Assembly (NCBI RefSeq): GCF_008297975.1
Contig: NZ_VLNY01000010.1
Location: 62,001 to 126,000, forward strand
Origin: Antrihabitans cavernicola
GTDB lineage: Bacteria > Actinomycetota > Actinomycetes > Mycobacteriales > Mycobacteriaceae
Length of the DNA stretch: 64,000 bases
Direction: 5' to 3'
The translations under genes were made by a program, and so were the position numbers. A model generated the notes under the pieces. The model worked only from the letters and a program-made list of their open reading frames with translations. It had not been told where the DNA came from and made no database searches. This document shows positions 24,977-45,254 of the stretch, one piece after another (the stretch's first letter is position 1; the number at the start of each line of letters is the position of its first letter).

Positions 24977-25077
24977 TGTCCTGTCTCATCGAACCTGACA
25001 TAGGCCAAGGCTTGGACCTGCGGTGCGTCAACTGCCGTGAGACGCGTCCTACGCCAACGTCTCATTCATCGTGGCAC
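24977..25077 (+). repeat. Transposon left end with 19-bp transposase-site repeats
   Basis: The tip TGTCCTGTCTC is at 24977-24987. Repeats: 24983-25001 (GTCTCATCGAACCTGACAT) and 25059-25077 (GTCTCATTCATCGTGGCAC) in left-end orientation. A third, 25025-25043 (GCGTCAACTGCCGTGAGAC), is in the opposite orientation and closely matches the right-end copy at 45178. Confidence 0.65.
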
Positions 25078-25094
25078 AAATCATCGAATGAATA

Positions 25095-25790
25095 CTGTCG
25101 TGCAAGGTCGTCGTCATCACCGGAGCCAGCAGCGGCGTCGGCGCCGAAACGGCACGTCACCTGTCCGCGGCCGGAGCAAAGGTGGTTCTCGGTGCGCAGA
25201 TCGGTCTTCCCGATGGTGCGGTCGTACAGACCGACGTGACCGACCGCCAGCAGGTGACCGCGCTGGTCCAAAATGCCGTGAATCTCCACGGCCGGATCGA
25301 CGTCATGATCAACAACGCCGGCCTCATGCCGCTTTCGCCGCACGAGATGGAGCGGTTCGACGAACGGGAACAGGCGATCGACGTCAACATCAAGGGTGTG
25401 CTCTGGGGCAGCGCCGCCGCGCTACCGCACTTCAAGCAGCAGCGGTCCGGGCAGTTCGTCAACGTTTCCTCGGTCGCCGGCCACGCCGTCAATCCCGGCG
25501 GCGCGATCTACTCCGCGACCAAGTACTCGATGCGGGTGATCTCCGAAGTGCTCCGTCAAGAGGTCAAGCCCTACAACATTCGGACCACCGTCATCTCACC
25601 CGGCGCTGTCGACACCGAAGTTCCAGGCTCTGTCAAAGCCGACGGTGTCGCCGCATCTGTCGCGGATTTCTACCGGGACACCGCAATCCCCGCCAACAGC
25701 TTCGCCCGCTGCGTCGCCTTCGCGATTGGCCAGCCTGAGAACGTCGACATCAATGAAATACTCTTCCGCCCCACCAACCAGCAACGCTGA
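25095..25790 (+). pseudogene. Short-chain dehydrogenase, 5'-truncated
   Basis: A clear classical [16 protein letters not shown] at the N-terminus, [13 protein letters not shown] and the catalytic YSATK. But an in-frame TGA (25089-25091) lies five codons before the NAD-binding motif and no ATG, GTG or TTG intervenes, so the natural start is gone. In addition, about a dozen residues seem missing between KVVLGAQ and IGLPDGAV, where relatives have an R-R-x-R-L-x-x-L segment. The break lies 18 bp inside the last left-end repeat, so the gene was probably cut when the transposon end and cargo were joined. Translation from GTG 25182 would lack the cofactor motif. Confidence 0.72.
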
Positions 25791-26320: not shown

Positions 26321-27004
26321 ATGACCAAGCGAATTCTGCACGTTGTCACCAATGTCGGCCACTACGAGGACCCGTCCAAGCCGACCGGGTTGTGGCTGTC
26401 GGAGTTGACGCACGCGTATCACGTGTTCGAGGAGCAGGGCTATGAGCAGCGGATCGTCAGCCCGAACGGAGGCTTGTCCCCGTTGGAACCGCGCGCGCTG
26501 AAGTTTCCGAACTACGACAAGACCGCGAAGGCGTGGCGCGCCGACGAGGCCCGGATGGCGCTGCTCGCGAATACCGCCTCACCCGACGAGATCGACTCGG
26601 CAGATTTCGACGCCATCTACTTCACCGGCGGCCATGCTGTGATGTTCGACTTTCCCGACAGCGAAGGCTTGCAACGGATTACGCGTGAGATCTGGGAACA
26701 GGGCGGAATCGTCTCATCGGTGTGCCACGGATACTGCGGGCTGCTGAACACCAAGCTGTCGGACGGCTCGCTGCTGATCGCGGACCGTAAGCTCACCGGG
26801 TTCGCGTGGCAGGAGGAAGTGGTCGCCAGAGTCGACAAGCTGGTGCCCTACAACGCCGAACAGGAATCGAAGCAACGTGGTGCGCTGTACGAGAAGGCCC
26901 TGGTGCCATTCGCGGTGAAGGTCGTCATCGACGGCCGGCTGGTGACGGGCCAGAATCCGCCGTCGGCCAAGGCGACTGCCAAAGCGGTCGTGTCGGTGCT
27001 GTGA
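26321..27004 (+). CDS. DJ-1/PfpI (Hsp31-like) family protein
   Basis: 227 residues with the class I glutamine-amidotransferase-like fold. The nucleophile elbow is SVCHGYCGLLN with Cys at about 128, and FTGGHAVMFDFPD carries the conserved upstream Gly-His segment, as in Hsp31/YajL-type chaperones and glyoxalase III. Likely repair or detoxification of reactive carbonyls. It overlaps the next SDR gene by TGATG (stop 27002-27004, start 27004). Confidence 0.87.
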   Translation: MTKRILHVVTNVGHYEDPSKPTGLWLSELTHAYHVFEEQGYEQRIVSPNGGLSPLEPRALKFPNYDKTAKAWRADEARMALLANTASPDEIDSADFDAIYFTGGHAVMFDFPDSEGLQRITREIWEQGGIVSSVCHGYCGLLNTKLSDGSLLIADRKLTGFAWQEEVVARVDKLVPYNAEQESKQRGALYEKALVPFAVKVVIDGRLVTGQNPPSAKATAKAVVSVL

Positions 27005-27858
27005 TGTCCAGCCGGCAAACAGTCGTCGCCCTCGTCACCGGTTGTTCGAGTGGCATCGGCGCGGCGACCGCGACCGACCTCGCGGCGCACGGCCACACCG
27101 TCTATGCCACCGCGCGCCGTCCCGAAACACTGAATTCGCTCGCCGATCAGGGATGCCACACGCTCGCGCTCGACGTCACCGACGATGCGTCTATGTCCGC
27201 CGCTATCGCTGCCGTCGAGCAGGAACACGGTGCTGTCGACGTGCTGGTGAACAATGCCGGCTATTCGCAGTCGGGTGCGGTCGAGTCGATCCCCCTCGAC
27301 GACATCCGCAAGCAGTTCGAAACCAACGTCTTCGGACTGATCCGGATGAGCCAGCTCGTCCTCCCGGGCATGCGCAAGGCCGGTCGGGGGCGGATCGTCA
27401 ACATCGGCTCGATGGGCGGCAAACTGACCTTCCCCGGCGGCGGCATCTATCACGCCACGAAATATGCGGTGGAGGCGATCTCGGACGCGATGCGGTTCGA
27501 GGTCCAGGGTTTCGGTGTCCAGGTCGTGCTCATCGAGCCCGGCCTGATCACCACCGAATTCGCCGGTACCGCAGTCGGATCGGTCGACGGCCTCGACGAC
27601 GGACCGTACGCGGACTTCAACGCGCGAGTCGGTGCGGTGACCGCCGACATCTACGCCGGCCCGATCGCCAAACTCGCCGGTGGTGGCCCGGAGTCGGTCG
27701 CCAAGGTCATCCGCAAGGCAGTCGAGAGCAAGCGGCCGAAGGCCCGGTATACGGTCACTCCCAGTGCGACACTGGGCATTCTGCAACGTCAGCTGACACC
27801 CGACAGGTTCTGGGATCTGGCGATGCGCACCCAGTTCCCAGTCCCCAAGAGCGACTGA
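27004..27858 (+). CDS. SDR family NAD(P)-dependent oxidoreductase
   Basis: 284 residues. TGCSSGIGAATATDLAAHGH is the cofactor motif, NNAGYSQSG follows at about 87-95, Ser is in IVNIGSMGG, and YHATKYAVEA holds the catalytic Tyr and Lys. The Thr-Gly-Cys-Ser-Ser-Gly form is typical of SDRs annotated as oxidoreductases close to retinol dehydrogenases. Translationally coupled to the DJ-1-like gene. It ends 4 bases before the convergent aldehyde dehydrogenase stop. Confidence 0.88.
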   Translation: MSSRQTVVALVTGCSSGIGAATATDLAAHGHTVYATARRPETLNSLADQGCHTLALDVTDDASMSAAIAAVEQEHGAVDVLVNNAGYSQSGAVESIPLDDIRKQFETNVFGLIRMSQLVLPGMRKAGRGRIVNIGSMGGKLTFPGGGIYHATKYAVEAISDAMRFEVQGFGVQVVLIEPGLITTEFAGTAVGSVDGLDDGPYADFNARVGAVTADIYAGPIAKLAGGGPESVAKVIRKAVESKRPKARYTVTPSATLGILQRQLTPDRFWDLAMRTQFPVPKSD

Positions 27859-27862
27859 CGGT

Positions 27863-29464
27863 TCAGCGCGAGCCCACACCTTTCAGGATCCGTTGCGCAC
27901 CGACCAAGACGGTCTCCCAGGACTGGTATGACAGCCAGGTCGGTGGGGTGAAGCCTTGGAGACGCTGCTGCGCGATCGTTTGGGGCTCGGTGTATTTCAG
28001 GATGCCGTCCACGCCGTGCCGGCGTCCCAATCCGGAGTCGCCCATGCCGCCCATCGGTGAGTCGATGCTTCCCCATGCGGCGGCGAAGGCTTCGTTGACG
28101 TTCACCGTGCCTGAGTGCAGCCGCGCGGCCACCGCTCGGCCCTTGGCGCTGTCGCGGGTCCAGACGCTGCCGTTGAGGCCGTACGGGGTGGCATTGGCCC
28201 GTTCGATCGCGTCGTCGACGTCGTGGAACTTGTAGATCGATACGACGGGGCCGAAGGTCTCGTGGTCGTAGAGCGTCATGTCGGGGGTGACGTCGACGAG
28301 GATGGTCGGTTCGTAGAACAACGGGCCGAGATCGGGTCGCGCCTTCCCGCCGGCGAGCACGGTGGCGCCCTTCGCGACCGCGTCCTCGACGTGCGCGGTG
28401 ACGGTGTCCAGCTGGGACCGGTTCGTGAGGCAGCCGACGTCGATGCTGTAGTCGTAGGCAGCACCGAGGCGGAGCTTCGTTGTGCGCGTGGCAAATTCGG
28501 CGACGAATTCGTCGTAGATCTGCTCGGCGACGTACATGCGCTCGATGGATACGCAGAGCTGTCCGGTGGAGGGGAAGCATGCGGTGATCGCGCCGTCCGC
28601 GGCCCGGTCGATATCGGCATCGTCGAGGACGAGCATCGCGTTCTTGCCGCCGAGTTCGAGCGATGCGCCGATGAGGCGTTCGCCGGCGTCGCGGGCGATC
28701 TGCCGTCCGCTCGCCGTGGATCCGGTGAACATCACGTAGTCGGCGTTGTCCATCAGCGCTGCGCCGATGGAGCTGCCGCGCCCGATCACCATCTGCCAGA
28801 CATCGGTAGGGAGGCCGGCCTCGTGCATCAGATCCAGCGCCCACAAAGCGGTGAGCGCGGTCTGGGTGTCGGGCTTCTGGACGACGGCGTTGCCGGCCAT
28901 CAACGCGGGGATGGCGTCGCCCGCGGCCATGCTGAGGGGGTAGTTCCACGGTGAGATTACCGACACCACGCCCTTGGGGTGGTGCAGTTCGGTGGTGTGG
29001 GTGAGCAGGGGAATCGCGCCGCGGCGTCGCTGGGGCGCAAGGAGTTTGGCGGCGCTGCGGGCGTAGTACCTTGCGGTGATCGCGATGTCGGTGACCTCGA
29101 GCAGCGCATCGCGGCGGGTCTTGCCGTTTTCGGCCTGCATCAGATCCAGGGCCTGCTCCCGGCGGTCGAGGACGAGGTCGTGGAATCGGAGCAGGATCTT
29201 CTTTCGCTCGCGCACGGGCGTGGCCGCCCAGCTCGCCTGGGCTACGCGTGCGCGCGCGAAGGCGTCCTCGACATCGGCGGGAGTGGAGACCGGCAGATCC
29301 GCCAGCTGCGTGTCCGTATAGGGGGCGTTGGTGGTTACGCGGGCTGCATCCGGTGCCGCCGCCACGCGCGAGGTCAGCCGGATCAGCAGGGCGGGGGTCA
29401 ACGACGGGGGTCGGTGGCCGGTGCCGATTGCCTGGGTTGGCAAGGTGGATTGATCGATCGACAT
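27863..29464 (-). CDS. gabD2: NAD(P)-dependent aldehyde dehydrogenase, GabD2-like
   Basis: 533 residues. PWNYPLSMAAGDAIPALMAGNAVVQKPD (first 20 residues PWNYPLSMAAGDAIPALMAG) is the cofactor region, the catalytic Glu is in LELGGKNAML, and the nucleophile Cys is in STGQLCVSIER. The C-terminal NVNEAFAAAWGSIDSPMGG fits succinic-semialdehyde dehydrogenases of the Mycobacterium GabD2 type, though other aldehydes are possible. Last gene of the minus-strand unit esterase-ADC-like, whose promoter carries operator O1 (31442-31489). Confidence 0.85.
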   Translation of the reverse strand: MSIDQSTLPTQAIGTGHRPPSLTPALLIRLTSRVAAAPDAARVTTNAPYTDTQLADLPVSTPADVEDAFARARVAQASWAATPVRERKKILLRFHDLVLDRREQALDLMQAENGKTRRDALLEVTDIAITARYYARSAAKLLAPQRRRGAIPLLTHTTELHHPKGVVSVISPWNYPLSMAAGDAIPALMAGNAVVQKPDTQTALTALWALDLMHEAGLPTDVWQMVIGRGSSIGAALMDNADYVMFTGSTASGRQIARDAGERLIGASLELGGKNAMLVLDDADIDRAADGAITACFPSTGQLCVSIERMYVAEQIYDEFVAEFATRTTKLRLGAAYDYSIDVGCLTNRSQLDTVTAHVEDAVAKGATVLAGGKARPDLGPLFYEPTILVDVTPDMTLYDHETFGPVVSIYKFHDVDDAIERANATPYGLNGSVWTRDSAKGRAVAARLHSGTVNVNEAFAAAWGSIDSPMGGMGDSGLGRRHGVDGILKYTEPQTIAQQRLQGFTPPTWLSYQSWETVLVGAQRILKGVGSR

Positions 29465-29535: not shown

Positions 29536-30489
29536 TCAGTGCAGTGCTGCGCGCAGGGTGTCCTGCGCGAGCTTGATGGCCGCCTTCGCGGCCTGGGTCG
29601 ACGCCAGGGCGTGCAGCATCACGAAATCGTGGATGATGCCGCCGAAGCGCACCTGGGTGACCGGGACGCCGGCCTCGCGGAGTTTGGCGGCGTAGGCCTC
29701 GCCCTCGTCGCGCAGTACGTCGGCCTCGCCGGTGATGATCAGTGCCGGCGGCAGCCCTCGGAGTTGCTCGACCGACGCGCGCAGCGGGGACGCGTAGATC
29801 TCCTCGCGTTGCGCGTCGTTCTCGGTGTACTGGTCCCAGAACCATTGCATGCCTTTGCGAGCGAGGAAGTAGTGCTCGGCGAACTGGTGGTAGGAGGCGG
29901 TGTCGAAGTCGGCGTTGGTGACCGGGTAGAACAGCACTTGCTGCGCGATCGTCACGTCGCCGCGCTCTTTCGCCATCAAGGTGAGCACGGCGGTCATGTT
30001 GCCGCCGACCGAGTCGCCGGCTGCGGCGAATCGTGATGCGTCGAGCCCTTTTTCGGCACCGTGGGCGAAGACCCACTGGGCGGCGGCGTAGTTCTGCTCG
30101 ATCGCGGTCGGATACTTCGCTTCGGGAGATCGGTCGTACTCCGGGAACACCACCGCTGCGTCGGCGCCGACGGCGAGCTCGCGGACCAGCCGATCGTGGG
30201 TGTGCGCATTGCCGAACACCCAGCCGGCGCCGTGGATGAAGAAGATGACTGGCAGGGTCCCGGTTGCTCCGGCGGGTTTGACGATGCGTACTGGTACCGA
30301 CCCGGTCGGCCCGCCCTCGATGGTGATCCACTCCTCGTCGATCTCCGGCTTGTCGATCTCGCTGGACTGAACCTCGTCGACGGTGGCGCGACCTTCCTCG
30401 GGAGGCAGCTGGAACAGGAACGGTGGAGTGTCGGTGGCCTTTGCGAACTCTGCTGCTTCGGACTCGAGTACCGGCTCGATCTCGGGCAT
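29536..30489 (-). CDS. Alpha/beta hydrolase, hormone-sensitive-lipase family esterase (1)
   Basis: 317 residues. HGAGWVFGNAHTHDR is the HGGG-type oxyanion motif in its HGAG form, GDSVGGNM holds the nucleophile Ser (about 164), and the catalytic Asp and His are in EADVLRDEGEAYA and GIIHDFVML. Paralogous to the esterase at 31521-32495. Cytoplasmic. Lies between the ADC-like gene (12-bp gap) and gabD2; it probably hydrolyses the ester or lactone made in the pathway. Confidence 0.88.
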   Translation of the reverse strand: MPEIEPVLESEAAEFAKATDTPPFLFQLPPEEGRATVDEVQSSEIDKPEIDEEWITIEGGPTGSVPVRIVKPAGATGTLPVIFFIHGAGWVFGNAHTHDRLVRELAVGADAAVVFPEYDRSPEAKYPTAIEQNYAAAQWVFAHGAEKGLDASRFAAAGDSVGGNMTAVLTLMAKERGDVTIAQQVLFYPVTNADFDTASYHQFAEHYFLARKGMQWFWDQYTENDAQREEIYASPLRASVEQLRGLPPALIITGEADVLRDEGEAYAAKLREAGVPVTQVRFGGIIHDFVMLHALASTQAAKAAIKLAQDTLRAALH

Positions 30490-30501: not shown

Positions 30502-31419
30502 CTATCGGGGTGTCGCCGGTACCGAGGTCGGGACCGGCATATGCAGGGCGAGTTGACCTTCGGTGGTGACATCGAGCCGAACGGTTCGGATCGGTTTCAG
30601 TGAGCGCACGTCGTCGGACAGGCGCCCGCTGCCGAGTCGGAGATCGAGATTGCGCGGCAGGAGCGCGGATCCGGCCGACAGCTGGTTGGTCTGGCTGGTG
30701 GTCGAATGCCAGGCACCATTGATCGACGTGTAGGACGTCAGCGACGAAACCCTTTCTCCGCTTGGGTGTCTCGTCTGTGCAGGGGTAGGTACCGAGAGCG
30801 CGATGTCGGTGTCGCCGTGGTCGTTGGCGACGCGTGCGGTCGTGTGCGTGTCATCGATGTCGACGTCGAGCTCGGTGACCCATTTCGGGAAGCCGTAGCC
30901 ATCGTGCCCACGGACTTGCGCGATCTGGGTGTTGACCGGCAGCGAGAGCACATACGAATGCAGGTGGTCGTCGTCGAGGCCGGCGACCAGGTCGGCGAAC
31001 CCGAGCCTGCCGTGCCGTGCCGGCCTGACCGCGACCCCGACCGCCGCCTCCGTGTAGAAGTCGATGTCGCACACGTCGTAGCGGAAGAAGATGATCGAGA
31101 CCAGCCCGAGTCCGGGCGCGACCTGCAGAGGGGCCAACTCCGCGGGCAGCCGGTCGCGGATCGCGCTGGAACGGGCGAGCATCGTGATTCGCGCGGTCGA
31201 GATGCGGTAGTAGAAGTTCGGCGTGAACGTCTCGCCGATCGGCGAATCAACCTTGGTCTTCGACAGCCCGCGGAAAAAGTCCACGCTGCTCACCCGCGGG
31301 TCGCGGGCGATCTCGTCCAGATTCGGATCCATCCGAAACCGGTCGTACAGGCCACCTTTCGGGACCGTGACCGTGCGGCCACCCAACTCGACCTCGACTG
31401 TGTCCTGGATTGTCGGCAT
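30502..31419 (-). CDS. Acetoacetate decarboxylase family protein
   Basis: 305 residues of the ADC-like fold, recognised by GLGLVSIIFFRYDVCDIDFYTEAAVGVAV and HGYGFPKWVTELDV-type segments (short pieces: VPKGGLYDRF, GYGFPKWV). Members include acetoacetate decarboxylase and enzymes acting on related keto acids or enals; the Schiff-base lysine is not certain here. First gene after operator/promoter O1, leading the ADC-esterase-gabD2 unit. Confidence 0.75.
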   Translation of the reverse strand: MPTIQDTVEVELGGRTVTVPKGGLYDRFRMDPNLDEIARDPRVSSVDFFRGLSKTKVDSPIGETFTPNFYYRISTARITMLARSSAIRDRLPAELAPLQVAPGLGLVSIIFFRYDVCDIDFYTEAAVGVAVRPARHGRLGFADLVAGLDDDHLHSYVLSLPVNTQIAQVRGHDGYGFPKWVTELDVDIDDTHTTARVANDHGDTDIALSVPTPAQTRHPSGERVSSLTSYTSINGAWHSTTSQTNQLSAGSALLPRNLDLRLGSGRLSDDVRSLKPIRTVRLDVTTEGQLALHMPVPTSVPATPR

Positions 31420-31520: not shown

Positions 31521-32495
31521 TCAGTCCTCGTGCAATGCGTCGCGCAGCGCGTCGACAGCGAGCTTGCGCGCGACGTTCGTGGCAGGGGTGTCGCGGAGGC
31601 TGTCCAGGAGCAGGAAGTCGTGCACGGTGCCGCTCACCCGGACGGCGGTGACGTCCACGCCTGCCTCGCGCAGTTTGTTGGCGTACAGTTCGCCGCCGTC
31701 GCGCAGCACGTCTGCTTCGGCGGTGATCACCAACGCGGGCGGCAGGCCGCTGAGTTGCTCCAGGCTCGCCCGCAGCGGCGCGGCATAGGGTTGTTCCCGC
31801 TCGTCCGGGTCGGTGGTGTAGGCATCCCAGAACCACTTCATTCCGTCACGGGTGAGGTAGTAGTGCTCGGCGAACTGGTAGTAGGACGGGGTGTCGAAGT
31901 CGGCGGCGGTCACCGGGTACAGCAGCACCTGGGCCTTGAGATCGATTCCGCCGCGGTCCTTGTTCATCAACGCGAAGACCGTGGACATGCAGCCGCCGAC
32001 GGACTCGCCGGTCACCGCGACGCGCGAGGTGTCCAGGCCGTGCTCGGCGCCGTGCTCGAGCACCCACTTGCCGACGGCGTAGTTCTGTTCGACCTGAGTA
32101 GGGAATTTCGACTCTGGCGCGCGGTCGTAGACGGGGAAGACGCCGGCCGCGCCGGCTCCGACGGTGAGTTCGCGGAAGAGTCGGTCGTGGGTCTTGTCGT
32201 CGCCGAAAACCCAACCGGCACCATGGATATAGAAGACGACCGGAAGTGGACCGGCGGCGCCCTTGGGTCGAATGATGCGAGTGTGCACGGTGCCCCAGGT
32301 GCCCGCATCGACGTCGACCCATTCCTCGTCGACGTCGGGCCGCGGCACGCTTGCGTCACTCTGGATGTCGAGCAGGAGTTGGCGACCCTTTTTCGGCGGC
32401 AACTCGTAGATCCGAGGGTGCGGGTCGGTCTGTTCGGTCAATTCGCGGGCGGCAGTTTCCAGGTACGGCGTGATCGGTTGTGGCTGATCGGTCAT
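31521..32495 (-). CDS. Alpha/beta hydrolase, hormone-sensitive-lipase family esterase (2)
   Basis: 324 residues. Oxyanion motif HGAGWVFGDDKTHDR, nucleophile in GESVGGCM (Ser at about 167), acid and His in EADVLRDGGELYA and GTVHDFLLL. About half identical by eye to the esterase at 29536, so a duplicated enzyme in one pathway. Divergent from the AraC regulator, which starts 58 bases away. Confidence 0.88.
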   Translation of the reverse strand: MTDQPQPITPYLETAARELTEQTDPHPRIYELPPKKGRQLLLDIQSDASVPRPDVDEEWVDVDAGTWGTVHTRIIRPKGAAGPLPVVFYIHGAGWVFGDDKTHDRLFRELTVGAGAAGVFPVYDRAPESKFPTQVEQNYAVGKWVLEHGAEHGLDTSRVAVTGESVGGCMSTVFALMNKDRGGIDLKAQVLLYPVTAADFDTPSYYQFAEHYYLTRDGMKWFWDAYTTDPDEREQPYAAPLRASLEQLSGLPPALVITAEADVLRDGGELYANKLREAGVDVTAVRVSGTVHDFLLLDSLRDTPATNVARKLAVDALRDALHED

Positions 32496-32553: not shown

Positions 32554-33588
32554 ATGGACGCCGGTACTGTGGCGACAATGGGCGCACACGACACTTTCCG
32601 GGGCGATCGCGACAGCCCGCCGCGGATAGCGAGTGAGGTGGGGCTGGTCGTCTACCCGGACTGTCAACTGTCGGCGATTCACGGCCTCACCGACATTTTC
32701 CGGATCGCCAGCGAGTACGCGGCCACGAGCATAAGCAGCCCCCCGGCCGTCATCCGGGTCAGCCACTGGGCGGCGGTGAACGGGGAAGTCGAGTGCACTT
32801 TCGACAGCCATCCCGGCACCGATCACGCACTGACGCATGTGATTTCGCCGCCCAGCTTAATCGTGCCCGAGTACATGACGCCACGCGCGGATCTGCGGAG
32901 CTGGATGCTCGACATCCACGCGGCGGGGACCACCGTGTGCGCGGTGTGTGCGGGCGTGTTCGTTCTGGCTGACGCGGGACTGCTCGACGATCGGGACGCA
33001 ACGACCCATTGGGCGTTCGCCGACGAGCTGTCCAGGCGCTATCCGGCGGTCCGTGTCGATGCGTCCCGGATGGTCGTCGACGACGTCGACATCATCACCG
33101 CGGCAGGGATTTTGGCGTGGGTCGACCTCGGGCTCACGCTGGTCGAGCGGCTACTCGGCCCGAGTGTCATGCTGCACACGTCCCGTTTCATCCTCAGCGA
33201 TCCACCACGGCGCGAGCAACGCCTCTACAGCGAATTCGTCCCATCGCTCGGTCACGGCGATTCCGCGATTCTGCAAGCGCAGCAATACATTCACGCACAT
33301 AGCGACCTACAGGTAACTGTGCGAGGACTCGCCGAGGTCACCCGACTGCAACCGCGGACTCTGCAGCGGCGATTTCGGAAGGCAACGGGAATGAGCGTGA
33401 CCGAGTACCTGCAAGGCGCACGGATCGCCAAGGCGCGAGAATCACTGGAACTGACACAACATTCCGTGGAGCAGATCTCGATGGATTCGGGATACCTCGA
33501 TGCGTCGACCTTCCGAAGACTCTTCCAGCGCACAACGGGAGTCAGCCCCTCCGAATACCGCAAGCGGTTCGGGATCGCCCGAACGTGA
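32554..33588 (+). CDS. GlxA-type AraC family regulator
   Basis: 344 residues (336 if ATG 32578 is used; neither has a good ribosome site). N-terminal DJ-1/PfpI-like sensor domain with VGLVVYPDCQLSAIHGL and VCAVCAGVFVLADAGLL, and a C-terminal AraC double helix-turn-helix (VRGLAEVTRLQPRTLQRRF, VEQISMDSGYLDASTFRRLF). GlxA-type regulators activate neighbouring catabolic genes. It is divergent from esterase 2 and overlaps no operator of the O1-O4 type, so it probably gives a second input to the cluster. Confidence 0.9.
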   Translation: MDAGTVATMGAHDTFRGDRDSPPRIASEVGLVVYPDCQLSAIHGLTDIFRIASEYAATSISSPPAVIRVSHWAAVNGEVECTFDSHPGTDHALTHVISPPSLIVPEYMTPRADLRSWMLDIHAAGTTVCAVCAGVFVLADAGLLDDRDATTHWAFADELSRRYPAVRVDASRMVVDDVDIITAAGILAWVDLGLTLVERLLGPSVMLHTSRFILSDPPRREQRLYSEFVPSLGHGDSAILQAQQYIHAHSDLQVTVRGLAEVTRLQPRTLQRRFRKATGMSVTEYLQGARIAKARESLELTQHSVEQISMDSGYLDASTFRRLFQRTTGVSPSEYRKRFGIART

Positions 33589-36804: not shown

Positions 36805-36846
36805 GTTGACGATGCTTACATTTGCTGTAATGTAAGCAGTGCACAC
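36805..36846 (+). promoter_or_regulatory. TetR operator O3 and promoter of the quinone oxidoreductase gene
   Basis: TGCTTACAT (36813-36821), 8 bases, ATGTAAGCA (36830-36838). The -35 TTGACG is at 36806-36811 and the -10 TAATGT at 36828-36833, 16 bases apart, so the operator covers the whole core promoter. Flanks GTTGAC and GTGCACAC match O1 read in reverse. Confidence 0.78.
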
Positions 36847-36876
36847 ATTGCCTTGGTGATCGAAAGGATGTCTCTC

Positions 36877-37869
36877 ATGTATGCGGTGACCCTCGACGGT
36901 TTCGGCGGACCGGAAGTCTTGGCGTGGGCCCAGGTGGACGACCTGCCGGCACCCGGTCCCGGTGAGGTGACCATCGATGTCGCGGCTGCCGGGGTGAATC
37001 GGGCAGACGTGATGCAGCGAGGCGGCTTCTACCCGCCGCCGCCGGGCGCTAGCGAGATCCTCGGCCTGGAGGTCTCCGGCGTGATCGCCGAAGTCGGTCC
37101 CGGCGTGCAGGATTGGCAGCCCGGTGACGCGGTGTGCGCGCTGCTGGCCGGCGGCGGGTACGCCGAGAAGGTCATCGCGCCGGCCAGTCAATTGCTCCCG
37201 GTGCCGGAGGGGGTGAGCCTCACCGCCGCCGCCGCGTTGCCCGAGGCCGCCGCCACGGTCTGGTCGAACCTGGTGATGACCGCCGGACTGCACTCCGGGC
37301 AGGTGTTGCTCATTCACGGTGGCGCGAGTGGAATCGGTACGCACGCAATTCAAGTCGGTCGTGCGCTCGGCGCCCGGGTTGCGGTCACGGCAGGATCGCA
37401 GGCCAAGCTGGATCGCTGCCGCGAGCTCGGCGCGACGACGTTGATCGACTACCACGATCAGGATTTCGTGACCGTCGTGTCCGACGAGTATTCCGGCGCG
37501 GACGTCATTCTCGACATCATGGGCGGCAGTTACCTGCAGCGGAACGTGGACACCCTCGCCGAGGGCGGACAGTTGACGATCATCGGGCTGCAAGGCGGTG
37601 CCACGGCGGAACTGAATCTCGGTGCGCTCCTGAGCAAGCGGGGATCCGTGCACGTGACCAACCTGCGCCGCCGCCCCGCACACGGGCCCGGCTCCAAGGC
37701 CGCGATCATCACGGAAGTGCGGAAGCACCTGTGGCCGTTGGTATCCGACGGAACGGTCATGCCCATCGTGTCCGCCGAAGTGCCGATCACCGACGTTGCC
37801 TCGGCCCACCCGCTGCTGGACTCGCCCGCGACGGTCGGCAAGGTGGTCCTCACGGTCCGCGAGCCCTGA
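36877..37869 (+). CDS. Zinc-independent NADPH:quinone oxidoreductase (PIG3/QorA-like)
   Basis: 330 residues from ATG 36877 (GAAAGG nine bases upstream; ATG 36868 also possible). MDR superfamily: GVNRADVMQRGGFYPPPPG, LGLEVSGVIAEVG, and the NADPH site HGGASGIGTHAIQVGRALGA (20 residues). The pattern closely fits the TP53I3 (PIG3) quinone oxidoreductase group; no zinc ligands. Reduces quinones or enones. Preceded by operator O3 and followed by a strong terminator. Confidence 0.88.
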   Translation: MYAVTLDGFGGPEVLAWAQVDDLPAPGPGEVTIDVAAAGVNRADVMQRGGFYPPPPGASEILGLEVSGVIAEVGPGVQDWQPGDAVCALLAGGGYAEKVIAPASQLLPVPEGVSLTAAAALPEAAATVWSNLVMTAGLHSGQVLLIHGGASGIGTHAIQVGRALGARVAVTAGSQAKLDRCRELGATTLIDYHDQDFVTVVSDEYSGADVILDIMGGSYLQRNVDTLAEGGQLTIIGLQGGATAELNLGALLSKRGSVHVTNLRRRPAHGPGSKAAIITEVRKHLWPLVSDGTVMPIVSAEVPITDVASAHPLLDSPATVGKVVLTVREP

Positions 37870-37994: not shown

Positions 37995-38242
37995 TCAGTC
38001 GGGGCCATCGCCGCGAGCGTCCTGTATCCGCCGGGTGCGGTTCAGGTCGATGCGGCGTTGCCGCTGGTCTTGGCGCTGGATGTAGATCTCGAGCTGCCAC
38101 AGCAGGAAGTGTTCGGCGTCGGTGTAACGATGCCGCGAGATCCGAAGTGGCTGTACTGCTTCGGCAGCTCCGGCCACCGCACGACGTTGGCGGCTTCGTC
38201 GAGGACCGCGAGCATCGGCACCGACTTCTTGTGCCGCGGGGT
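37995..38242 (-). pseudogene. Remnant of a conjugative coupling protein (TraG/VirD4-like)
   Basis: On the minus strand 38242-38129 reads SVPMLAVLDEAANVVRWPEL then PKQYSHFGSRGI, which matches the ALDEAAN...LP..YSHYGSRGI core of TraM/VirD4-type coupling ATPases of actinobacterial conjugative elements. The frame then shifts by one and continues to 37995 as RYTDAEHFLLWQLEIYI..., a piece I cannot place. No start is present. It shows the cargo region was once in contact with a conjugative plasmid or ICE. Confidence 0.6.
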
Positions 38243-38312
38243 TGTCGGTGCTCGCAAGTACTGTCGAACGCACGCGAGGTACGGCCAACGGTTCAAGCAT
38301 GGAGATATTGGT

Positions 38313-40214
38313 GTGAGTCGGAAATACGGACGTCGAAATCCGAAACGGCCGCCCCGTTGCCGACCGGCGCCGGCGCCTCCAGCCGGCGACAATGGTGCGG
38401 ACGTCGAGGTCGACGCGATGATGGAACTACTCGGGGCTCAGATCTTTCCAGTCATGTGCGCCGACGTCGGGCTCGTACCGATGCAGGCTGCGGACCGGCA
38501 GACCTTGTTAGCGCGACTTGCGCTAGGGCCGACTCTGACGCTGATCGTGGGGCGCTGGACGCGCTTCGACGTCGCGGCGACGACTGACTGGCAAACCCGT
38601 CGAGTTCAACTCGAATTCATTGAGGGCATCGACGCCGACTGGGCGGATGCTCTACGTGAGCGAGTTACTCGCGGCCATGTTGTATTCGTGCCGCGTTCGG
38701 TCGCGCAACTCGTTCGCGAGGTGCTTGAGTCCGCTAGCACGGACGCGACTGCTGTTGCCCCGGAACCGAGTCAGCTCACGCATATGCTGCTTTCGATCAA
38801 CACCGAGCACAATTCGACCGAACTCAGCCCAACCGGAACTGTGACCCGTGCAATCGTCGAACGAATGCGTGATGAGGTCTTCGGACTTGACGCTGAGCAG
38901 ACCACAGCCCGCCTACGTGAGTCGCTGATCACCGAAATAGCGAGCGTACTGTTCGACGCTCCTCTCAAACTTGAGATACTGCAGGGGAACAGCAGGGACA
39001 CTTGGTTCAGGCCGTGGCCAGCTCAAGTCATCCGCCCCGAGCTCGGTGCGACGCCGGCAGACGCGTTCGCGTCGGCGAACGGCGTTCCGCTCGTCGACGT
39101 GCTCAAGGTTGGCTCGTACATCGTCGACCAAATGCGGTCCTGCACCCAGCTCCGGTTCGGTAGGTCCGAATTGATAGACGCTGGCGCGACAGAATCAGCT
39201 GTGGACTACTGCATCCGCGAGATGTCCAGTCCGCTCGGAAGTTTCCGGTCCAACCTGCGCCGTGATCGTCGACGCGGACCGATTGAACAGCAGCGCTATA
39301 CGATGACGCGTTTCCCCTTCCTACGGATGCCGGACGATTCGGTCGTCGTGTTGCGCTACCAATGGGTTGTCGATCGCTTCTTTGGCTCGATGCTGTACTG
39401 GCCGACCTTCGTGGGGCTGCCAGGATTCCAGCCTCCCGGCACCGCCGACCCCGGATCCGTCGCTGAGGCGTTCAGCGACGGAATGAACCACGTCTTCGAA
39501 CGGTCGGTCGGTGAGGGATTGACCAACCTCGTCAACAACAGTCGATTGGCAACACGGTTGGTCACCGAACCCGAGTTGCAGGAAACGTGGGCGGCCCGGC
39601 GAGGCGAGACGCCATCGGCGTGCGATTGGGTAGTCGTCGTGGGCAAGCTGTGCGTCGTCGTCGACGCCACGAACCATCACCTGGATGCCACGCTCGCTCA
39701 GGCCCTAGGTACGGTCGACGACTATTCCGCAGAGATCGAGGCAACGTTCTCCAACCCGAACGAGAAGTTCGACCAGCTCGGCAAAACGATGGATCGGTTG
39801 GCAGAGTCAGGCTTCCGCGAATTCGGGCTGGCACGCAATCCCGTGTTCGCGCCGCTCATAGTTGTTCCCGACGGGGGTCTCCCGAATACGCCCACGACCG
39901 ACCTCGACCTTCAGTTGCGGAGCCAACCAAATCTCGGGCGATTCAACGGCCAAATGTACCCACCCGCGGTCGTCACACTTTCCATGCTTCAACTCCTGGA
40001 GGGAGTAGCCGAGTCGTTCGGACGAAATCCCTTCTATCCCGATGTGTTCGAGGTAATCAACGCATGGCGTAGAGCAAGCATGATGCCCCCGGGTACGACG
40101 CTCGACAAAATTGTCGATAGCAGGCTTCCGGCCCGCCCGATACCGAAGCGGATTCTTCGCGCGCACACTGCGATGAATGCGCAACTCGCTTCGCCGCCGC
40201 CCGATGGAATCTGA
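38313..40214 (+). CDS. Unrecognised 633-residue protein next to the transposition module
   Basis: I do not recognise the family. GTG 38313 follows GGAGAT; an open frame continues upstream but overlaps the TraG remnant. The N-terminus is basic and Pro-rich (SRKYGRRNPKRPPRC). The middle contains FPFLRMPDDSVVVLRYQWVV, and residues 438-458 read DWVVVVGKLCVVVDATNHHL, with Asp438 and Asp451 spaced as in some restriction-endonuclease-like cores; that is only a hint. No signal peptide or membrane segment. Base composition looks less GC-rich than its neighbours. Convergent to tniQ (87-bp gap), thus cargo in the classic position; an anti-phage or plasmid-defence role is possible but unproven. Confidence 0.75.
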   Translation: MSRKYGRRNPKRPPRCRPAPAPPAGDNGADVEVDAMMELLGAQIFPVMCADVGLVPMQAADRQTLLARLALGPTLTLIVGRWTRFDVAATTDWQTRRVQLEFIEGIDADWADALRERVTRGHVVFVPRSVAQLVREVLESASTDATAVAPEPSQLTHMLLSINTEHNSTELSPTGTVTRAIVERMRDEVFGLDAEQTTARLRESLITEIASVLFDAPLKLEILQGNSRDTWFRPWPAQVIRPELGATPADAFASANGVPLVDVLKVGSYIVDQMRSCTQLRFGRSELIDAGATESAVDYCIREMSSPLGSFRSNLRRDRRRGPIEQQRYTMTRFPFLRMPDDSVVVLRYQWVVDRFFGSMLYWPTFVGLPGFQPPGTADPGSVAEAFSDGMNHVFERSVGEGLTNLVNNSRLATRLVTEPELQETWAARRGETPSACDWVVVVGKLCVVVDATNHHLDATLAQALGTVDDYSAEIEATFSNPNEKFDQLGKTMDRLAESGFREFGLARNPVFAPLIVVPDGGLPNTPTTDLDLQLRSQPNLGRFNGQMYPPAVVTLSMLQLLEGVAESFGRNPFYPDVFEVINAWRRASMMPPGTTLDKIVDSRLPARPIPKRILRAHTAMNAQLASPPPDGI

Positions 40215-40301: not shown

Positions 40302-41282
40302 TCAGTCAGCGCGGGAAGAAGTCGTGATTGTCGCCACTGCCGCCGTTGAACGATGGGTGACTGCGCCGGGCAGTACGAGCACCCTCCGCTCCGAATCTGG
40401 CGGCACGGTTCTGGGAATGGCAACGATCGGGCCACTCGGCGCATCGAGTTCCATCCAGCGGGGGTGGCGGTCGTTGACCCATTGGATCAAGGGGTCGTGC
40501 GCGCCTTCAGGTCGGTAGCGGCCGGTCACACTACGCGCGACCTGATCACGGGCGCGGTTCCACCCGGTTGGTCCGCTCAGCGCGTCCTCGACCCAGGTGG
40601 CGTTGGTGAGCAGCAAAGTCAGAGCGACGACGGCAGGATACTGCGCGGCGAGTTGATGCTCCGCTATGGCCGCGTAGGACTCAGGATCGGCGCCGGGCAG
40701 GCGTTCCGCCCGCGCGGTGACCGCGGGCAGGGCGTTGCGTCGGTGCCAGCGATCGATGATGCCGGCGGCTTCGGCACGTGCTTCGCGGACGGCAGCCGCG
40801 CCGATGCGCACGATGAGGCGCCTGTGGATCCGATTGGCGCGCACGATTTCCGGTGCTTTCTGGAGAACCATCTGGTTCGTCGAGCCGTCACCGATCCATC
40901 GATGGTGCCGCAGGCAGACGCAGTCTTCATCGTTGTGCCACACCGTGATCCGGCGACCGCCGTGCCGTGCGGTGCAGAGTCGACACGGTTGCCCGACACC
41001 GGTAAAACCGGGAGGTGGGCGAAGCTTGCGTTCGCCGAGGTTCACCGACGCCTCCCGGAGTTCGGGCAAGGTCCGTGTGAGAACGTCGATCGAGTGCCCG
41101 GTCAACGCGGCCAATGTGGCCACCGGGTTCGGGGGCGTGTGCCGCACCACGCCGAGCAAATACCTGGCGGGCAGCCCATTTCCGACGGCAAGCCGTTGCA
41201 GGAAGAGCAGCAGCACCTCGTTGCGTATCGGCACCGTTCGCAGCGGGAGCCGTTGCGGCACGACCAGTTCCACCGGCGACAT
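40302..41282 (-). CDS. tniQ: TniQ family transposition target-selection protein
   Basis: 326 residues from ATG 41282, two bases after the tniB stop. The N-terminal TniQ domain (LPLRTVPIRNEVLLLFLQRL, ARYLLGVV) is followed by the TniQ zinc knuckle QPCRLC...DEDCVCLRHH (about 98-128). In Tn5053/Tn7-like elements TniQ (TnsD-like) links the ATPase to the target. The C-terminal part shows no further DNA-binding motif that I can identify. Last gene of the transposition operon. Confidence 0.88.
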   Translation of the reverse strand: MSPVELVVPQRLPLRTVPIRNEVLLLFLQRLAVGNGLPARYLLGVVRHTPPNPVATLAALTGHSIDVLTRTLPELREASVNLGERKLRPPPGFTGVGQPCRLCTARHGGRRITVWHNDEDCVCLRHHRWIGDGSTNQMVLQKAPEIVRANRIHRRLIVRIGAAAVREARAEAAGIIDRWHRRNALPAVTARAERLPGADPESYAAIAEHQLAAQYPAVVALTLLLTNATWVEDALSGPTGWNRARDQVARSVTGRYRPEGAHDPLIQWVNDRHPRWMELDAPSGPIVAIPRTVPPDSERRVLVLPGAVTHRSTAAVATITTSSRAD

Positions 41283-41284: not shown

Positions 41285-42313
41285 TCAGCCCGTCGAGGTC
41301 GATGCAGGACGTTGGTGCGGAGCTACGGTTTCGGCGGCGTGATCCAGGACGGTCGCATCCAGCAGATCGCGGGTGACCGCTTCGGAGCCGGACACGATAG
41401 CCGACAGAGCGGCGGTGCGGATAAGCTGCGACAGGCTCGAGATCGACCCTCCGGTGCGCTGGTGCAGATACTTGGCGTTGCGCGTCAACGTCCCCGGCGC
41501 GTGCTCGTAGAGGCGAAGCGCGGCCTCCAACGTGGCGACCAGCGAACGCCATTCGTCACCGAAGATGAACGGGCCGGTGTGCACCAGCACCGATCGAGCG
41601 GAGATCTGCTTACCGCGCACGCCGGTGAACAGCCCCGAGCGTTCGACATTGATCCCGGCGTATACGAAGGTCGCCGGCATGTGCTCGGTGAAGTACTTCA
41701 AGTGATCGGACATGTCCTCGCCAGCACTGGTAGCCAGGTTCAGATTGTGGATCTCGTCGACGATCACCAGGTCGGTCCGGGCCTCGGTCAGCACGTGACA
41801 GACGGCGTCGGCGATGTCGGTCGTGTTGTAGCGCGGCTTGTCCGGCAGGCCAAGGAAATGTGCGAACTCGCTGGCGAGCTTGCGTGGTGACCCCTTCGGC
41901 GGTGTGGTGATGTAGACGACGGGGATTCTGTCGTGGTCGGGCCAATGACTACGCACCTTCTGCTCGTGCACCTTGCCGAGCAATTTGATCGTGGTGGATT
42001 TGCCGCTGGCCCACGGACCGTCGACGATCAACGACCGGCGCGCGCTGATCTCTCGCTGATTGAGCATCATCAGCAGTCGGCCCTGATGAATGATCTGACG
42101 AACCGTGGACGTTTCCACGACCACCAGCTCGGAGTGGTAAGCGATGCGCCGCTCGTCATACTCCTCGCGAGCCGCCGCGCCGAGATCGTCGAAGGACATC
42201 CGATCCATGAGAGTCAAATGGACTGGTTTGTTGTCGACGAACTGCCGCCACCCCTCAAGCGTGACGGTCGGTAGCCGCCGATGTTCTGTGTGACCATCCC
42301 CGGACCCGTTCAC
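41285..42313 (-). CDS. tniB: TniB/TnsC-type AAA+ transposition ATPase
   Basis: 342 residues. Walker A DGPWASGKSTT (about 98-108) and Walker B DLVIVDEIHNL (about 181-191). This is the AAA+ regulator that forms filaments on target DNA and couples TniQ to the transposase. Four bases separate it from tniA. Typical length for TniB (about 300-340). Confidence 0.92.
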   Translation of the reverse strand: MNGSGDGHTEHRRLPTVTLEGWRQFVDNKPVHLTLMDRMSFDDLGAAAREEYDERRIAYHSELVVVETSTVRQIIHQGRLLMMLNQREISARRSLIVDGPWASGKSTTIKLLGKVHEQKVRSHWPDHDRIPVVYITTPPKGSPRKLASEFAHFLGLPDKPRYNTTDIADAVCHVLTEARTDLVIVDEIHNLNLATSAGEDMSDHLKYFTEHMPATFVYAGINVERSGLFTGVRGKQISARSVLVHTGPFIFGDEWRSLVATLEAALRLYEHAPGTLTRNAKYLHQRTGGSISSLSQLIRTAALSAIVSGSEAVTRDLLDATVLDHAAETVAPHQRPASTSTG

Positions 42314-42317: not shown

Positions 42318-44387
42318 TCACCACCAGGACTTGGCCTCCTTGTCGGGATCGAACACCGGTAGCGGGATCACGTCGGCAATGTCGTCGTCGGCGTCCTGCT
42401 CGGCCAATGCGGGCCCGGCTACCGGTTCGGTCGGCGGGATCGGCGACGCAACAGAGTTGGTGGCGCGGGTGCGGGCCGCCACGCGACGGCCCTTGCGAGA
42501 CGACGCAGCCCGGCCGGCGTTCGACGGCGCTGCGGCCCGGTCTAGCAGGTCGTCGACCGCCGCGGTGATCGTTTCCTCGGTCGGTGCTTGCTGGCCGCGT
42601 TCGGCAACGACGCGGCGGGCATGGTTCCACGCGTCCTGCCCGAAGGGTTGCGGTACCGCCCGTAGCTGCTTCCAATAGGCGGTGATCCAGGCATCGTCGG
42701 CGCGATTGCGGATCCAGACCCTCGTCACGTCGTATGGGTCGTAGTGCACCGCCCACCTGCCGCCGAGCGCGGCGATGCCGGACTTCTCTCCCCGCAACGG
42801 ATTCAACGCTTCGTCGTCGTAGACCCGGTGGTCGATCTTGACGCCGTAGGCGTTAATCACGCGCGGCACGCTCGGAAGCAGCCGGATGTAGTCCTCGCCC
42901 GAGAGCGGTGCCGGCACATAGCCCGCGACGGCAAGCAGCGCCGCATACTTCTCGTTCGGCGTCAGCATCTGCTTGCTGCTCAACGGATCCCGCAGCCCGT
43001 CGTGCGGGCGATTCTGCCAGCAGGTGACGATCCACTCGTCGAGCAGACTCTGCAACTCGACCAAGGAAAACGCCGCCTGCCCCTCCGCGTTGTTGCCGCG
43101 CCGCTCGACCGACGAGCCGAGATAGCCGGTGACCTTCTCCGCGAACAATGTCGCGACCGAGCCCAGGGTGCGTTCGACGATGCCCTTGTCGGTCGGCGTG
43201 TCCGGATGGGCGGGCTGGATCGTCACACCCAAAGTACGACATGCGGAACGGAACGTGTTCGACACGAACACTTTTCCGTGGTCGAACACGATCGTCTCCG
43301 GCACGATCACAGGTCGCGCAGCGGCATCGCGTAAGCGGTCGTCGACCGCGAGCATGTGCTGGAACGGCAACGCCGAGTTCGCCATAGCGATCGCCTCCGG
43401 CCATCCCGGGCGCATCGGCTCCGGCGTCATCGCCTTCGCTAGCAGTAGTGCGGCGTCGACCGCCTTCGTAGTCGGGCGCAACACCGCCGCCGCGATGCTG
43501 CGGGTCGCGACATCCACTAGGGCAGTTAACTCGACCCGACCGATCACCCCGTCATCCAGAACGATCGCGACATCGAGTGGGGTGGAGTCGATCTGAGTGA
43601 GTTCACCCGGACGCACCGCGACCACCGACCCGAACGGGCCCGTCGGCTGCTTGGCCAACGTACGCCGCGTCCGAGCCGATCCGGTCGCGTGCCGAGCCTC
43701 GGCCATCCGGTCCAGCAGACGGTAGAACGTCGGCCGAGACGGCATCGAAACCGACTCGCCCGGATACTGTTCCGCCAGATCCCGCTCCACCGCGCGGCGC
43801 AGCCGGTCGGCGCTCCCCGACGATGCCTCGGTGTTGGCCGCCAGGACTCGACGCACCGACGCAACCACCCGCTCGTCGGCACGGCCCAGCGCCGACGACC
43901 GCCTGATCAGGCGTTTGTCGACCAGACCGAACACATTCTCCGCTTCATAAGATTGCCGCATCCGCTGCAACGACCGCAACGGGATCGGCTCGCCGGATGC
44001 GGCCATCTCGGCCGCCTTGCTGACCTCGCGTTGACGCAACGTCGTTGTCAGAACGCAATATTCGGGCCGGGGCAGAGTCCCCGTCGGGGCATCGAACGGC
44101 ACGCCGTCCAGGATCTCGGTGATGTGGTGCTCCAACCGCAGCGCCCGCTCACGCACCTCCACGGGAAGCTGTTCGAAAATTGGTGGGGGAGCGATACGTC
44201 GCGACCGCTCGCTCGACAGGACCCGGAATGTCCTGTCGGTCAGCAGATCAGCGGCCCGCACGGTCAGCGGTGCACAACCCGGCGTGGTCAGGTACACGAC
44301 CGTGCCGTCCACGCCGGACACGTCGTACTCGGTGTCACCGAAACGAATACGCGAACCGACCCGTATCCGACGGCTGTCGGCGCTCAT
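42318..44387 (-). CDS. tniA: TniA/TnsB-type DDE transposase
   Basis: 689 residues from ATG 44387, overlapping the tnsA stop by ATGA. The Mu-type rve core has Asp267 (QIDSTPLDV), Asp369 (VFDHGKVFVS) and Glu405 (KGIVERTLGS): 35 residues separate the last two, the classical DD35E. N-terminal winged-helix DNA-binding regions (about 100-235) precede it and a Mu C-terminal beta-barrel follows (INAYGVKIDHRVYDDEAL). It cuts and joins the transposon 3' ends. Confidence 0.94.
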   Translation of the reverse strand: MSADSRRIRVGSRIRFGDTEYDVSGVDGTVVYLTTPGCAPLTVRAADLLTDRTFRVLSSERSRRIAPPPIFEQLPVEVRERALRLEHHITEILDGVPFDAPTGTLPRPEYCVLTTTLRQREVSKAAEMAASGEPIPLRSLQRMRQSYEAENVFGLVDKRLIRRSSALGRADERVVASVRRVLAANTEASSGSADRLRRAVERDLAEQYPGESVSMPSRPTFYRLLDRMAEARHATGSARTRRTLAKQPTGPFGSVVAVRPGELTQIDSTPLDVAIVLDDGVIGRVELTALVDVATRSIAAAVLRPTTKAVDAALLLAKAMTPEPMRPGWPEAIAMANSALPFQHMLAVDDRLRDAAARPVIVPETIVFDHGKVFVSNTFRSACRTLGVTIQPAHPDTPTDKGIVERTLGSVATLFAEKVTGYLGSSVERRGNNAEGQAAFSLVELQSLLDEWIVTCWQNRPHDGLRDPLSSKQMLTPNEKYAALLAVAGYVPAPLSGEDYIRLLPSVPRVINAYGVKIDHRVYDDEALNPLRGEKSGIAALGGRWAVHYDPYDVTRVWIRNRADDAWITAYWKQLRAVPQPFGQDAWNHARRVVAERGQQAPTEETITAAVDDLLDRAAAPSNAGRAASSRKGRRVAARTRATNSVASPIPPTEPVAGPALAEQDADDDIADVIPLPVFDPDKEAKSWW

Positions 44388-45145
44388 GCAGCCGACCGGC
44401 CACGGACGACCGACGCCAGACTCAACGGCACCGAACCAAGATCGGTCGCGATTCGATGTATCCAGATCAAATGAAAGATAGTCGGCAGCACCACGATCGG
44501 AGGCCCGCACCGCTCGGCAAGCGTGCCGATCGGCATCGGAGCCGCCGCCAATACCTCGGCGACGACCGCCGCGATCGCCGAGTCCAGACACCGACGGTGC
44601 CGATAACCCGCGAGCCAACGCAGATTCGCTGCGAACACCGGATCGAGTTCTCCGACTCGCGTATACCGCCAGCCAGCCGCCTCGCAGCACCTGCCCGTCG
44701 CGGCGAACACCGCTGCGTCATGCTCACCGACCAGAGCGTCCGGACGCACATCGACAACCCAGCCCGTTCCGTCGCCGCAGCGGACGAAATAGTCCGGTGT
44801 ATGCGCCACGGCTCGCTCGCCGACACGTAACCCGAGCCGGAACGGCTGACTCGCGATACCAACCGACTCGCGAACGAAATCCAGCTCCATCAACCTGTCG
44901 CGCTCCACCCACGACTCGAACCCGACGTGGTCGCCTGTCGTTGCCGACCACCATTCGCCGACGAAATTGCGTTGTCCCTTGTAGGTCCGCAGCGCGCGAA
45001 CCGGCCGACCCGACTCGAACGGCCGGTGGTGAACCCGAGCCAGCACATCGGACTGTTCACCACCATCGTCACAAAACGTCACAGTGACAAATTCGAGTGG
45101 ATCACGCCTCGGCGGAGGAGGCGGCGCACAGACCGCTGTGGTCAT
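44384..45145 (-). CDS. tnsA: TnsA-like endonuclease
   Basis: 253 residues from ATG 45145. The N-terminal restriction-like domain contains GFESWVERDRLMELDF (acidic residues about 77-88), HTPDYF (Asp118) and VVDVRPD where TnsA has a Lys (here Arg134). This arrangement fits TnsA, which cuts the 5' strands so that the element moves by cut-and-paste. The catalytic Lys-to-Arg change makes activity uncertain. The start codon directly abuts the first right-end repeat (45146), implying autoregulation by transposase binding. Confidence 0.8.
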   Translation of the reverse strand: MTTAVCAPPPPPRRDPLEFVTVTFCDDGGEQSDVLARVHHRPFESGRPVRALRTYKGQRNFVGEWWSATTGDHVGFESWVERDRLMELDFVRESVGIASQPFRLGLRVGERAVAHTPDYFVRCGDGTGWVVDVRPDALVGEHDAAVFAATGRCCEAAGWRYTRVGELDPVFAANLRWLAGYRHRRCLDSAIAAVVAEVLAAAPMPIGTLAERCGPPIVVLPTIFHLIWIHRIATDLGSVPLSLASVVRGRSAA

Positions 45146-45254
45146 GCGCCAACTGTAATGAGACGAAACATGCAGGTGCGCCAACTGAACTGAGACACGC
45201 CGAGCGAATACGTCAGATCAAACGAGACTGCGCCACATCAGGCGAGACAGGACA
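45146..45254 (-). repeat. Transposon right end with four 19-bp transposase-site repeats
   Basis: Repeats: 45146-45164 (GCGCCAACTGTAATGAGAC), 45178-45196 (GCGCCAACTGAACTGAGAC), 45210-45228 (ACGTCAGATCAAACGAGAC) and 45230-45248 (GCGCCACATCAGGCGAGAC). Spacing is 32, 32 and 20 bp. The tip GAGACAGGACA ends at 45254. Confidence 0.8.

Follow-up and report, generated by a model that had tools for sequence, protein, structure and literature searches.

What is the 20-kb block of genes that occupies this stretch of Antrihabitans cavernicola DNA, and why does it lie where it does? The stretch analyzed, referred to below as the window, is 64,000 nucleotides (nt) long and comes from a genome of 41 contigs and 5,660,905 bp. 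An earlier note, made from the letters of the window, had proposed a Tn7-like transposon of about 20 kb with its left end at 24977. Comparison with related genomes bears this proposal out and extends it. We put at about 82% the probability that positions 24977-45254 are a 20,278-bp Tn7-like transposon that belongs to the actinobacterial TnsA/TniA/TniB/TniQ type and has inserted next to the chromosomal dif site. That its right end adjoins dif is the main feature of the locus, and it is absent from the earlier note.

Ends and transposition genes of the element

The proposed element is bounded as follows.

24977..25079, + strand: left end, with the tip at 24977-24987, a reversed repeat at 25024-25043, and a weak repeat at about 25059-25078 (by eye)
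45145..45254, - strand: right end, with three repeats ending in GAGAC and the tip at 45244-45254

As previously reported, both ends carry the same tip, TGTCCTGTCTC, in inverted orientation (24977-24987 on the + strand, 45244-45254 on the - strand). These are the only two exact matches in the whole genome, and a reversed-pattern control gave none. The repeats ending in GAGAC, also seen earlier at both ends, comprise three on the right and one clear copy on the left. Their pattern, TGCGYCAANTGNNNTGAGAC, matches with 0 mismatches at 25024-25043, 45145-45164, and 45177-45196 and with 3 mismatches at 45229-45248; a fifth match in the window (52471, 3 mismatches) lies outside the element, and the count of 5 against 1.1 expected is no independent test, as the pattern was derived from these same repeats. 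The left repeat at 25024 is oriented opposite to those of the right end, and the left-end block of related elements, TGACCTGC..TGCGTCA, is oriented likewise. The element thus has inverted TGT..ACA ends with repeated sites that resemble transposase-binding sites. An imperfect 30-nt inverted repeat (80%) is also present directly outside the left end, at 24895-24966.

The right end abuts a complete tnsA-tniA-tniB-tniQ set, as had been claimed, with NCBIfam, Pfam, and PADLOC matches (tniQ falling below the Pfam cut-off).

44384..45184, - strand: tnsA (NF033179 TnsA_like_Actin, 260.3 bits against a cut-off of 110; the NCBIfam match begins at residue 49)
42318..44690, - strand: tniA, TnsB-like DDE transposase (Mu-transpos_C, 28.8 bits against a cut-off of 21.7; PADLOC TnsB, 1.1e-15)
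41285..42313, - strand: tniB, TnsC-like ATPase (TniB, 58.9 bits against a cut-off of 22.4; PADLOC TnsC, 1.5e-4)
40302..41282, - strand: tniQ, 326 amino acids (aa) (PADLOC TniQ, 4.7e-06; CxxC..CxxH zinc-finger pattern)

Together these supply a TnsA-like endonuclease, a TnsB-like transposase with a TnsC-like ATPase, and a target selector of the TniQ/TnsD type. The true start of tniA is probably near 44.37 kb, since most relatives align only from about residue 102-109. For the window TniQ, Pfam TniQ was the sole family seen, yet it scored 17.2 against a cut-off of 27; the TniQ proteins of related elements also fell below this cut-off in five of five cases (16.8-26.4). The CxxC..CxxH pattern is invariant in ten TniQ sequences, and when solved structures were searched by profile, TniQ chains ranked first, at an E value of only 0.1.

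A search for TniA in 401 genomes of the family returned 53 places in 41 genomes at E <= 1e-60; no such tniA was found in three congeners of the window (G001-G003). Genomes are named below by our labels, among them G176 (Tsukamurella pseudospumae), G187 (of the same genus as G176), G225 (Rhodococcus aetherivorans), G271 (Mycolicibacterium iranicum), and G039 (Segniliparus rugosus). The ends of the related elements repeat the architecture of the window element: the tips are TGTCC, the right end has repeats, and the left end has the block TGACCTGC..TGCGTCA or a variant of it, while the cargo between them is unrelated to that of the window. The shortest element measured, in G215, is 4.9 kb long and the longest, in G271, 51 kb, and six of the nine measured elements (G187, G176, G039, G226, G215, and G271) are flanked by perfect 5-bp duplications. 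The restriction of the tip to the two ends, the end layouts shared with relatives, and these duplications support a 20,278-bp Tn7-like unit. A different left end near 38-40 kb, which the earlier note had named as evidence against its proposal, was not seen, and the end at 24977 is homologous to the relatives' left ends.

The right end adjoins dif

45312..45339, + strand: dif site, with its core CCGATAATCGACATTATGTCA at 45316-45336, placed against the Frankia alni dif

The core lies 61 bp outside the right tip. We identify the site as dif on three grounds: it is the genome's sole match to a strict dif pattern, and in the window it is still single with three mismatches allowed; its core is the same as that of CACGCCGATAATGCACATTATGTCAAGT, the dif suggested for Frankia alni (PMC3025954); and it lies near the turning point of the GC skew, whose cumulative curve peaks at 40-44 kb and declines rightward.

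The same arrangement recurs in relatives. The distance from right end to dif core is 61 bp in the window, 79 bp in G187, 53 bp in G176, 52 bp in G039, and 60 bp in G271 (where the right end is about 45 kb away from tniA), with one dif orientation throughout. We scanned 49 of the 53 tniA places for dif, going out on the right-end side by at most 10 kb from each (several stretches were shorter; the total was 405,975 bp) and leaving out second copies in G225, G215, G311, and G376. A strict dif was present at 12 of the 49 loci, the window included, against about 0.07 expected for one dif per 5.5 Mb; it had one orientation in 11 of the 12, and the reversed pattern occurred at none of the 49. The right end stands 52-79 bp from dif in four of the 12 (again counting the window) and 172 bp from it in G236b. 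The G271 case is additional to the 12.

A separate set of ten named loci comprised four genomes that overlap with the above and six others. In Arthrobacter sp. B2a2-09, an identical tip, GAGACAGGACA, is separated from a dif by about 75 bp (counted by eye). Arthrobacter sp. Leaf337 has a dif half-site only, the sequence of Arthrobacter sp. efr-133-R2A-120 ends at both tips and hence offers no flank, M. hubeiense has dif some kilobases off, and M. kumamotonensis has none in the stretch covered. The locus of Hoyosella altamirensis is rearranged at dif: around position 6.7 kb, a tniB (82% identical) is missing its first 32 residues and breaks off next to a dif-like site, and a tip of the transposon type lies just past that site. 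Six plasmid loci were also considered as possible cases of dif targeting; none had a dif-like site, and two had a palindrome, discussed below, beside the right end.

Several observations weigh against insertion of a Tn7-like element at dif. No dif was found within the scanned stretch at 37 of the 49 loci, and at the remaining seven of the 12 dif loci the site is 1.5-9.5 kb off tniA, with no recognized right end beside it. In Arthrobacter sp. B2a2-09, dif has the opposite orientation. A fresh order-level locus (G505) has neither dif nor the palindrome. No strain was found with an empty site among the same neighbors, as none of eight window flank proteins had a syntenic match near dif in the three congeners, and the GC skew left of the element is near neutral, with no clear positive skew. 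In addition, the window element has no 5-bp target duplication (ACGAC on the left, CGTGC on the right), as the earlier note had pointed out. A duplication lost after insertion does not exclude a Tn7-like element. The missing duplication probably results from recombination between copies or, equally plausibly, from a small deletion beside one end; we prefer recombination, for which G236 offers a precedent. This genome holds two identical-looking copies (contig C1, about 2.311-2.321 and 2.493-2.503 Mb) with mismatched flanks, in which the outer pair reads GATAG and the inner pair CGAGA, as would be expected if two copies, one of them on a circle of about 171 kb, had recombined.

Possible target selection by TniQ

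Is dif actively chosen? In a tree of 23 TniQ proteins, a branch with support 94/89 separated six dif-adjacent rows from three rows of elements adjacent to the palindrome GTCACWGTGAC, a result matched by 16 of 500 label shuffles. Of the rows, 14 were unlabeled, two of the three palindrome rows are identical, G236a was left out, and G236b was labeled as palindrome-adjacent from its twin copy. The link between TniQ and target is not strict, as the TniQ of G226 is nearly the same as that of the palindrome-adjacent element on an M. intracellulare plasmid, yet no palindrome lies near the ends of G226. In three elements (on the M. aubagnense plasmid, on the M. intracellulare plasmid, and on contig C51 of G285), the right end lies next to the palindrome and not to dif, at distances judged by eye as about 91, 56, and 56 bp. 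The sequences suggest that a sister group of elements targets the palindrome.

One alternative accepts a real Tn7-like transposon and explains its proximity to dif by survival or tolerance in the terminus, or by accumulation of foreign DNA there, with no active targeting. Other insertion-type ends do cluster beside dif, at 12 of 30 loci, and several relatives of the element lie kilobases from dif and many nowhere near it. Terminus tolerance would nonetheless fix neither distance nor orientation, and in five elements, the window included, the right end falls within a 28-bp range (52-79 bp) of dif in one orientation; the dif-adjacent TniQ proteins also group together. We therefore regard this alternative as unlikely.

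The clustering of other ends came from a count of the 5-bp tip GGACA near dif, which was present in 35 of 401 genomes, with about a dozen estimated by chance. That all such ends belong to the same transposon was not borne out, as window-like ends occur at only three of the 30 loci (window, G039, and G271). Another end type, ATCGGACA, closes 12 of the 30. Ends of this type (..TTCCGGATCGGACA or variants) stand 40-70 bp upstream of dif at these 12 loci (L115, L117, L118, L120-L123, L125, and L128-L131), a congener of the window included, and IS21-like frames near two of these are an impression from translated frames only. A second kind of element may also favor dif.

Under active targeting, and by analogy with Tn7, TnsA and TniA would excise the element and join it to its target, and TniB would couple the transposase to the target. 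TniQ would recognize the dif region, whether through dif DNA, bound XerC/XerD, or a neighboring site, and direct insertion to the XerC-arm side with the right end towards dif. Such a target would spare genes and keep dif intact.

A palindrome upstream of dif

Two copies of GTCACWGTGAC occur in the window, against 0.04 expected.

24778..24788, no strand: palindrome GTCACAGTGAC, lying in the left flank 199 bp short of the left end
45078..45088, no strand: second palindrome, part of the tnsA frame (VTVT in translation); the right end is 177 bp and dif 238 bp away

Among 29 dif loci that were not picked for transposons, GTCACWGTGAC was found 204-422 bp upstream of dif in 18 (the window being one, via its tnsA copy) and in the mirror interval in none. 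A wider, partly selected set comprised 69 distinct dif contexts; 47 of them have the palindrome 100-500 bp upstream of dif, and 2 have it downstream, within 1200 bp. In each of 12 genomes, the 13-mer CGTCACWGTGACG has between zero and four copies, and when five Tsukamurella-type dif regions are aligned, the palindrome and dif stand out as the clearly conserved blocks. In G206, G299, and M. hubeiense, dif has a pair of palindromes beside it (256-677 bp upstream) with a spacing of about 400 bp, and by eye the pair seems to bracket a small reading frame. Among the literature matches listed for the palindrome, none concerned dif by its title or the start of its abstract.

We take the copy at 24778..24788 to be the chromosome's own dif-associated one. 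With the element removed, the left-flank palindrome would stand about 260 bp from dif in the window, 306 bp in G187, 265 bp in G176, and 283 bp in G271. The window value falls inside the 204-422 bp of other loci. This spacing supports the view that the two flanks were originally adjacent and is the only evidence for it.

The tnsA-internal copy is present in the window, G187, and G176, at 238, 313, and 286 bp from dif, and is encoded as GTC-ACW-GTG-ACG (VTVT); ACW is an uncommon threonine choice in the genes of these elements (0.20, 0.12, and 0.17). These three copies are homologous and so do not count as three independent events. G039 has no internal palindrome, and in G271 the internal copy is 647 bp away from the right end. 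We hypothesize that insertion rebuilds the palindrome-dif arrangement via the tnsA copy; this copy would also be accounted for by a role as operator for the tns genes or by constraint on the coding sequence. It is conceivable, and we propose it tentatively, that in Mycobacteriales the palindrome works together with dif in a way so far unrecognized (for example, as an accessory site in dimer resolution by XerC/XerD) and that the transposon's tnsA copy restores the spacing after the chromosome's own copy has been pushed 20 kb off.

Cargo and integrity of the element

The remainder of the element holds the enzyme cargo with its own regulators that the earlier note had described; family matches identify dehydrogenases, reductases, and hydrolases together with AraC and TetR proteins.

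25098..25790, + strand: short-chain dehydrogenase (adh_short, 2.3e-45)
26321..27004, + strand: DJ-1/PfpI family protein (Pfam)
27004..27858, + strand: presumably a short-chain dehydrogenase, by its GxxxGIG and YxxxK motifs
27863..29464, - strand: aldehyde dehydrogenase, succinic-semialdehyde type (NF006916, 813.8 bits against a cut-off of 521)
29536..30489, - strand: alpha/beta hydrolase (Pfam)
30502..31419, - strand: acetoacetate-decarboxylase-like protein (Pfam)
31521..32495, - strand: alpha/beta hydrolase (Pfam, NCBIfam)
32554..33588, + strand: AraC-family regulator with a DJ-1/PfpI domain (Pfam)
33589..34770, - strand: saccharopine-dehydrogenase-like protein (Pfam; start picked by eye)
34794..36140, - strand: NADH:flavin oxidoreductase, old-yellow-enzyme type (Pfam, NCBIfam; start picked by eye)
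36215..36793, + strand: TetR-family regulator (Pfam)
36838..37869, + strand: quinone-oxidoreductase-like zinc-type dehydrogenase (Pfam)
38058..40214, + strand: 718-aa open reading frame, convergent with tniQ, no family match

This appears to be a catabolic or detoxification set, with a role perhaps in ketone, aldehyde, or ester catabolism. Homology of the first gene (25098..25790) begins ahead of its first in-frame ATG, GTG, or TTG codon (25182), and it may be 5'-truncated against the left end. The 718-aa frame had no match in Pfam or PADLOC, and a 674-aa part of it had none in NCBIfam. A 97-bp stretch at 38127-38223 is about 84% like a TraM-recognition-domain gene of Nocardia and Gordonia plasmids and is a possible plasmid remnant.

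The earlier note had named cargo without the tni genes at the same place as evidence against a single element. Part of the cargo does occur without them elsewhere. A plasmid cluster of Streptomyces sp. WAC00288 matches five cargo proteins at 65-81% identity (aldehyde dehydrogenase, 76%; decarboxylase-like protein, 72%; hydrolase, 81%; flavin oxidoreductase, 71%; TetR regulator, 65%), with weaker matches to a second hydrolase (60%) and to the short-chain dehydrogenase, DJ-1, and saccharopine-type proteins (29-39%). Its gene order is different, and no tni genes lie within the 22-kb stretch compared. Two more plasmids carry a decarboxylase-like protein at 69%, with neighbors that are partly similar. 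None of the related transposons held the window's enzyme cargo at high identity at the thresholds used, the only matches being short-chain dehydrogenases at 25-31%. We read the WAC00288 match as a sign of a module that moves separately, not of a misplaced element boundary.

It is very unlikely that 24977-45254 is instead a composite of a tni element on the right and cargo that deletion or recombination had joined to a left end, so that the 20-kb unit never moved as a whole: the lack of a target duplication, the apparent truncation of the first cargo gene, the TraM-like stretch as a possible seam, and the cargo relatives without tni genes would all suit it, yet both ends share a tip absent elsewhere in the genome, the left-flank palindrome and right-flank dif are correctly spaced once the element is removed, and related elements hold unrelated cargo between the same ends.

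Relation to known elements

A single Tn7-like transposon inserted beside dif falls closest to the actinobacterial Tn7-like clade (the second clade of Benler et al. 2021), described as experimentally uncharacterized and as using safe sites such as tRNA genes (PMC8649781). Like that clade, it has TnsA-, TnsB-, and TnsC-like proteins with TniQ, TGT..ACA tips, arrays of end repeats, 5-bp duplications in its relatives, and cargo between the left end and tniQ; it differs in that its target is dif. Neither "dif site" nor "Xer" appears in the portion of PMC8649781 seen, nor "dif site" in that of Faure et al. (PMC10293859).

Known dif hunters are the ISAjo2-type elements of the IS1202 family (PMC10132070), which likewise have a TnsB-related transposase, TGT..ACA tips, and 5-bp duplications and sit in one orientation to the XerC side of dif or pdif. 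Those are 1.5-kb, single-gene elements 5 bp from the XerC site, whereas the window element, with four transposition genes, a length of 20 kb, and a distance of 61 bp from the dif core, does not belong to that family. The res-site hunters Tn5053/Tn402 share tniA-tniB-tniQ and the use of a replicon resolution site as target. Their targets are the res sites used by serine resolvases, and their gene set includes tniR but lacks tnsA. The window element, in contrast, has tnsA, and its neighboring site, dif, belongs to the tyrosine recombinases XerC/XerD; Pfam scans of its proteins showed no resolvase, and we do not place it in that group.

Judged by titles and the starts of abstracts, none of the papers listed in literature searches concerns a dif-targeting Tn7-like transposon, and none is described in the portions seen of PMC11187229, PMC8373256, PMC5364183, PMC4356594, PMC8754128, and PMC12907356.

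Significance

Tn7-like elements include RNA-guided transposases. If the present reading is correct, a TniQ that directs insertion to dif would add a new kind of attachment site, one that is short and non-coding, required for segregation, left intact by insertion, and general on circular chromosomes. The catabolic load is a secondary point. Targeting of this kind would account for the entry of large loads into actinobacterial chromosomes with no gene being broken, and the palindrome hints that chromosome dimer resolution in mycobacteria and related bacteria may have a component not yet recognized.

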